Of a DNA stretch of 64,000 nucleotides, positions 42,434 to 46,611 are shown piece by piece. Below the pieces are notes generated by a model. It was not told the origin of the DNA, did no database searches, and saw only the letters and a list, made by a program, of their open reading frames with translations. The first letter of the stretch is position 1; each line of letters begins with the position of its first letter. The position numbers were made by a program, and so were the translations under genes. Origin of the DNA: Deltaproteobacteria bacterium (GTDB lineage: Bacteria > Myxococcota_A > UBA9160 > UBA4427); contig JAJDAO010000050.1 in NCBI GenBank assembly GCA_029261835.1, forward strand, positions 1 to 64,000, given 5' to 3'.

Positions 42434-43264
42434 ATGGGCGTACGGTTCTTCGGGCAGTTTCTGATCGACGAGGGCGAGATAGACGAGATCCAGCTGGCCG
42501 CGGCGCTGGCAGAGCTCGACGAGGTCAATCTCGAAGTCGGCGGGCTGGCGGCGCAGGCCGGGTATCTCAGCGAGCAGGCGGCGGCGCACATCAACGCCCA
42601 ACAGCGCAAACGCGACCTGCCCTTCGGTGAGCTGGCGGTGGAGCTGGGTTTGCTGACGCCCGATCAGGTCGACGAACTCCTTTTTCGGCAGGCGGGTCTT
42701 CACGCCCTTCTGGGTGAGACGCTCGTCAAGCGAGGCGATCTGGACCCGACCCGGCTCGCGGGGCTCGTCGATCGATTCAAGGTCGAGCAGGCATATTACG
42801 CGGACGCGTTGCAGAGCCTGCCGATGGCGTTGCAGGACGAGCCCTTCTTCGAGGACGTGCTCGATCTGGTCTGCAACCTGGCGCAGCGTGTTGCCCGGCT
42901 GAGGGTCAAGCTGGCGCCGACACAGGAATGGCAGGGCGGGACCGTCTTCCCGATCCGCGTGCGTGTAGAGGCCGAGCTGGAGCACACGGTTCGACTCGGC
43001 ATTGCGGCGAGCAGAGGATTCGGCCGAGCGCTGGCGGCGGGAATGCTGCGATGCTCGCCCGATGCCTGCGAGATCCAGCCCGTTGAGACGGCCGTCGCGG
43101 GCTTCCTCGAACTCGTCGCAGGCAACGCGAAGGCCGGTCTGACGGATCGCGATCAGTTCAACCGGATCGGCTCGCCCGAACACGGCTGTCTGCCCTCGGC
43201 GGGCTTTGCCGCCACCCTCGTCAGCACGCACGGCGATGCGCTGCTGATCATGGAGCCCGGCTGA
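42434..43264 (+). CDS. CheX-like protein with N-terminal helical repeats
   Basis: Protein of 276 aa. The N-terminus (about 3-125) has three repeats of the type 'FGQFLIDEGEIDEIQLAAAL', 'FGELAVELGLLTPDQVDELLFRQ', 'LGETLVKRGDLDPTRLAGLV', like MshEN/GspE-N repeats. The C-terminus (about 135-275) resembles CheX phosphatases. CheX catalysis needs Glu and Asn in 'GE(F)LN'; the equivalent segment here reads 'AGFLELVAGNAKAGL', with Glu replaced by Gly and Asn by Glu, so phosphatase activity is unlikely. Proteins with this domain order occur in deltaproteobacteria. Confidence 0.75.
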   Translation: MGVRFFGQFLIDEGEIDEIQLAAALAELDEVNLEVGGLAAQAGYLSEQAAAHINAQQRKRDLPFGELAVELGLLTPDQVDELLFRQAGLHALLGETLVKRGDLDPTRLAGLVDRFKVEQAYYADALQSLPMALQDEPFFEDVLDLVCNLAQRVARLRVKLAPTQEWQGGTVFPIRVRVEAELEHTVRLGIAASRGFGRALAAGMLRCSPDACEIQPVETAVAGFLELVAGNAKAGLTDRDQFNRIGSPEHGCLPSAGFAATLVSTHGDALLIMEPG

Positions 43265-46094: not shown

Positions 46095-46436
46095 TCAGAG
46101 CAAGACGTCCCGGTAGCTATCCTCGCTGAATCCGACGAGCGTGGTCTTGCCCCGGCGGATCGTGGGTGCGCGCAGATTGCCGGTCGGGCCCAGCATGGCC
46201 GTCACCAGATCCTTGCCCGCTTTTCCGGCGGGCTTGAACTCGCTGATCTTCTTGCCCTTGGCCACGATCACCTTGGCGGACGCTTTGGCGATCTCGCTCG
46301 CCTCTTCTCTTCCGAGCTTGGCGCTGGCCGAGACCGTTTGCTTCGGCTCGATGTCATGGGCGTCCAGAAACTTGGACGCTCGCGTGCAGGACGTTCAGCC
46401 CTTGCGGTAGTAGTACCAGTCGATGCTCTTGGCCAT
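46095..46436 (-). CDS. ArsC/Spx-family selenoprotein (in-frame UGA read as selenocysteine)
   Basis: Reading through the TGA at 46395-46397 as Sec gives a complete 113-aa thioredoxin-fold protein: 'IDWYYYRKGUTSCTRASKFL' (U14, C17), then 'FKPAGKAGKDLVTAMLGPTGNLRAPTIRRGKTTLVGF', the ArsC/YffB/Spx C-terminal pattern. It probably acts as a thiol/selenol oxidoreductase; a reductase role for arsenate is not established. ATG 46436 has GGAG 6 nt upstream, and the frame closes with TGA at 46095. A stem-loop suited to SECIS follows the UGA. Standard gene callers would miss or truncate it. A nonsense mutation is the alternative, but the UxxC position and the hairpin argue against it. No sel genes are in the window. 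Confidence 0.86.
46360..46379 (-). promoter_or_regulatory. bacterial SECIS-like stem-loop
   Basis: In the mRNA, GCGUCCA and UGGACGC form a perfect 7-bp stem around the 6-nt loop AGUUUC. The stem starts 15 nt, and the loop 22 nt, after the UGA. Bacterial SECIS elements typically show a short stem with a G in the first two loop positions about 16-37 nt downstream of UGA; all three criteria are met. SelB would bind it. Confidence 0.75.
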
Positions 46437-46611
46437 GGATTCTCCGGCTGCCGATGTCAGTGCTGTGGTGGCTCGCGGTCAATGGAGTCATATCGCGACT
46501 CGTCGACGGGCGCAGCCCCTGCGCCCGTAGGCCGCTCGGTCCGGGGTTTCTCCGCAACCTGCTAACGTCCCGGCCTGTCGCTCAGCTCACCCGCCATTCG
46601 CGAGATTCCCC

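Follow-up and report, generated by a model that had tools for sequence, protein, structure and literature searches.

Comparative evidence for selenocysteine at an in-frame TGA codon of an ArsC-related gene from a deltaproteobacterium

An in-frame TGA interrupts a short gene on the minus strand

Is the TGA triplet that interrupts a short ArsC-like reading frame a stop, an error or a codon for selenocysteine (Sec)? The question was raised by a locus at positions 46095–46436 of a 64,000-nucleotide stretch of DNA from a Deltaproteobacteria bacterium, which was analyzed as a whole and is called the window here. An earlier note had described an otherwise intact gene of 113 codons with a TGA at codon 14, but gave no strand. 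Direct reading confirmed the description and placed the gene on the minus strand (46436→46095); the plus strand has no such protein at these positions. The frame opens with ATG and comprises 13 codons, the TGA (46397–46395), 99 sense codons and a TGA stop (46097–46095). Apart from codon 14, no further in-frame stop was found inside it. The protein starts MAKSIDWYYYRKG-U-TSC…, and the full translation with TGA as U reads MAKSIDWYYYRKGUTSCTRASKFLDAHDIEPK…SYRDVLL, followed by the TGA stop. Codon 14 (46395–46397, minus strand) is thus the first position of a U-T-S-C redox motif. A Shine-Dalgarno-like GGAGA (46441–46445, minus strand), read directly, lies 4 nt upstream of the ATG, in line with the good ribosome site that had been claimed. 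Purine-rich GGAG boxes are present at the corresponding place in many relatives.

The form of the ORF by itself is weak evidence for Sec. At the stop frequency of the window, the chance of a 99-codon open run is about 0.18. In a mechanical scan, 107 TGAs of the window lay beside a redox-like motif and had 60 or more open codons behind them. These data would fit a decaying or miscalled ArsC-like gene in which the TGA is an ordinary nonsense mutation or a sequencing error, as the early stop is single, the gene is short and the assembly is a draft. Because TGAs of this form are common in the window, evidence was needed from relatives.

The TGA codon is conserved in homologous loci

Relatives were collected by a scan of GTDB species genomes, which gave 174 stretches encoding relatives (80 kept), and by a search of related genomes. 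The loci fetched from these two overlapping sets number 110. Codon 14 was not part of the scan patterns, and the query had Cys at this position; therefore, an all-TGA outcome was not built in. TGA at codon 14 together with Cys at position 17 was found in 110/110 related loci. With the window gene added and duplicates merged, these amount to 90 distinct proteins, and the relatives are 40% to 75% identical to the window protein. Records carrying the TGA are titled Deltaproteobacteria, Gammaproteobacteria, Planctomycetota and Acidobacteria, among others. The base 3' of the UGA is A in 111/111 sequences. After the TGA the protein remains conserved, with 13 invariant columns; the invariant motifs are RxGUxxC and LGPTG-x-x-R-x-P.

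With the NCBIfam model NF041106 (ArsC_rel_Se_1, 'ArsC family (seleno)protein'), for which the cut-off is 85 bits, the window protein scores 114.2 bits (E = 4e-33). The match spans profile positions 1–107 of 107 and runs across the TGA. Among 192 related genomes, 61 have a match above the cut-off, each with exactly one internal TGA. Taken together, the profile match and the shared TGA lift the case far above chance. A nonsense mutation or sequencing error is ruled out by the conserved TGA, which is identical in all related loci across several phyla and is followed by conserved sequence; we regard its probability as practically nil.

The earlier note had stated that relatives carry C-x-x-C. This holds for distant Spx-type homologues, whereas close relatives have U-x-x-C. 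Homologues with neither Cys nor Sec at the TGA position had been named as a finding that would refute the Sec reading. None were seen: all close relatives have Sec there, and the distant Spx homologues have Cys.

Cys forms are common in many selenoprotein families. No Cys form of the NF041106-type gene was found among the 90 distinct proteins from several phyla. Tentatively, this lack of any Cys-for-Sec replacement could mean that the subfamily is obligately selenium-dependent, a possibility that we do not favour but take seriously. If so, its chemistry would go beyond what Cys can support.

Two genomes showed unusual arrangements. One (G060) has two copies of the selenoprotein gene (C35:6828-7139 and C150:2281-2592), with the TGA in both. 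In another (G032:C167:32265-32577) the family gene gives two separate matches instead of one, with the TGA in the first; a frameshift, a degraded copy and an assembly error are all possible causes.

Selenocysteine machinery of the genome

The genome was searched for the Sec incorporation machinery that the earlier note had predicted, and whose absence would have spoken against Sec. SelA (508 bits), SelB (305 bits), SelD (319 bits) and tRNA-Sec (65.7 bits) were all detected above their curated cut-offs. ARAGORN likewise reported a tRNA-SeC with the anticodon UCA. SelD is itself a selenoprotein with its own in-frame TGA (LVPAGGUARKLG, Sec at residue 15; contig C98, L010:1393-2439, minus strand). 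This full machinery is a further argument against a nonsense mutation or sequencing error. The assembly consists of 104 contigs and is 95% complete with about 2% contamination. The machinery genes lie on contigs C78, C26, C98 and C21, and not on the contig of the TGA gene. Their linkage to the gene therefore depends on correct binning.

The presence of the family was compared with that of SelA in the 192 relatives. SelA was found in 60 of the 61 family-positive genomes vs 79 of the 131 others. The Fisher value of 1e-9 for this association ignores shared ancestry, and its direction alone is meaningful. The lone family-positive genome lacking SelA (G063, 85% complete) has a tRNA-Sec scoring 71.5 bits. 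The locus confirms Sec use in this lineage.

A code in which TGA is read as Trp throughout was considered and rejected. The reading frames end in TGA in 62 of 111 cases, the window gene included, and the Sec machinery is complete.

A covarying hairpin follows the UGA

A bacterial SECIS-type hairpin, GCGUCCA-AGUUUC-UGGACGC, was identified at 46360–46379 (minus strand). It has a 7 bp stem and a 6-nt loop, and the loop is located 22 nt 3' of the UGA. The folding energy in the window sequence is -10.9 kcal/mol (z = -4.9). A published bSECIS model (PMC13188914) asks for a loop of 3–9 nt, a stem of 4–16 bp, a G at loop position 1 or 2, a spacing of 16–37 nt and an MFE of at most -7.5. The hairpin agrees with the model in each of these respects, the G being at loop position 2. 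The signal lies within the 20-nt hairpin; folded as a whole, the 63 nt that follow the UGA are not unusual (z = -0.9). An Rfam scan of the window returned 0 matches.

Conservation of the hairpin was analyzed in an alignment of 88 distinct sequences, gap-free over 48 columns starting at the UGA. Of all stem cells, 95.9% are paired, and changes on both sides were seen in 4/7 pairs. Doubly changed stem cells number 13 vs 2.6 in shuffles, and sliding the pairing partners abolishes the signal. In relatives such as L114, L109 and L023 the stem is rebuilt from other bases. Ser21 and Lys22, wherever they are kept, are always encoded by TCC and AAG. These codons are fixed within the stem-loop, and selection therefore acts on both RNA and protein.

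Sec decoding at codon 14 is thus shown by comparative evidence. The proposal that the TGA encodes Sec in a U-T-S-C redox motif is borne out by the machinery, the conserved TGA and the covarying hairpin alike. As a whole, the data are best explained by a true NF041106 selenoprotein with SelB- and hairpin-dependent Sec insertion and a thioredoxin-fold product (probability about 0.97). SelB loaded with Sec-tRNA(UCA) would be recruited by the hairpin downstream of codon 14, and the ribosome would then insert selenocysteine at the UGA.

Relation to known selenoprotein families

The earlier note had called the gene hidden and its ordinary annotation wrong. This was overstated, since NCBI has a dedicated family model and reviews list the family. 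An "arsenate reductase-like" UxxC selenoprotein (COG1393 / NF041106) is included in two reviews (PMC9312934 and PMC13188914), the latter giving NF041106 as the family accession. ArsC-like selenoproteins were already in reports of 2006 and 2008. The Global Ocean Sampling survey (PMC2398784) contains the selenoproteins ArsC 1 (UxxS) and Arsenate reductase 2 (cd03032, UxxC). By its profile match, the window gene is a further member of an already catalogued selenoprotein family and not a new one.

The whole-length match to NF041106 and the common UxxC site leave no substantial difference from that family. The 'arsenate reductase-like protein' of the reviews has the Sec motif and the ArsC relationship in common with the window gene, but is represented there by another sequence. 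Both Global Ocean Sampling families are ArsC-family selenoproteins too, and Arsenate reductase 2 shares the UxxC site. As we read the last column of that survey, both have many Cys homologues, in contrast to the 90 distinct proteins collected here, where no Cys form was found. The locus is a well-supported example of the ArsC-like family, with its strongly covarying SECIS and its lack of a Cys form among the proteins collected. Its practical value lies mainly in annotation, as a gene caller that takes TGA for a stop will overlook the gene or cut it short.

Predicted fold and proposed function

The predicted structure (mean pLDDT 89.6) has an ArsC/Spx-like thioredoxin fold. In a fold search Spx and YffB were closest, with a modest match (TM about 0.55), and profile searches agree on Spx/YffB-type relatives. 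The thioredoxin-like fold is common to Spx (1z3e, 6gho), YffB (1rw1) and the window protein, and the CTSC motif of Spx aligns with UTSC. Spx and YffB differ in having Cys in place of Sec, and identity is low (19–25%). The LGPTG-x-x-R-x-P motif probably corresponds in position to the cis-Pro loop of such folds.

Based on these similarities, the product would consist of one thioredoxin-fold domain of the ArsC/Spx/YffB type, and its role is likely that of a selenol/thiol redox protein with a Spx/YffB-type fold. From the UxxC site and the fold, we infer redox chemistry of Sec14 and Cys17. Sec14 would probably act in selenol/thiol-disulfide exchange as a nucleophilic selenolate, or would attack an oxidised substrate, and Cys17 would resolve the selenenyl-sulfide formed at Sec14. 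Candidate substrates are a protein disulfide, glutathione, a peroxide or arsenate. The roles of nucleophile and resolving thiol follow established thioredoxin-fold chemistry.

The relationship to the ArsC family might also point to arsenate reduction as the physiological role of the selenoprotein. In R773 ArsC, the catalytic residues are Cys12 with Arg60, Arg94 and Arg107. Mapped by eye, these sites would correspond to Sec14, Lys60, Arg89 and Gly102, and one of three arginines would be kept. Arg89, part of the conserved R-x-P loop and close to where Arg94 would be, would fit arsenate reduction. In contrast, Lys60 and Gly102 would stand at the places of Arg60 and Arg107, and the profile alignment to R773 ArsC by hhalign was not significant. 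Spx/YffB came out of the sequence and fold searches with better E-values than true ArsC, and 0 arsenic genes were present among the annotated neighbours. We consider arsenate reduction an unlikely function.

A Spx-like transcription regulator, redox-switched by a U-S bond replacing the S-S bond, was weighed as well. Spx gave the best PDB fold matches and was among the best profile matches, and its CxxC switch sits at the equivalent place. The scores for the Spx models are nevertheless far too low (TIGR01617, 28.8 vs 75.05 bits; PRK01655, 23.5 vs 123 bits), and the organism is outside the Bacillota. Spx is not known to use selenol switches. We consider such a regulator very unlikely and prefer the selenol/thiol redox protein.

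The genomic surroundings were also analyzed. Of the 7 window neighbours tested, none was seen again at more than a few loci, and clustering of all ORFs over 89 loci revealed no general operon partner. The single large ORF cluster looks like spurious GC-rich frames. In the window, an ORF of 276 residues, for which no Pfam match exceeded the curated cut-off, adjoins a PilZ gene at 42434–43264 (plus strand).
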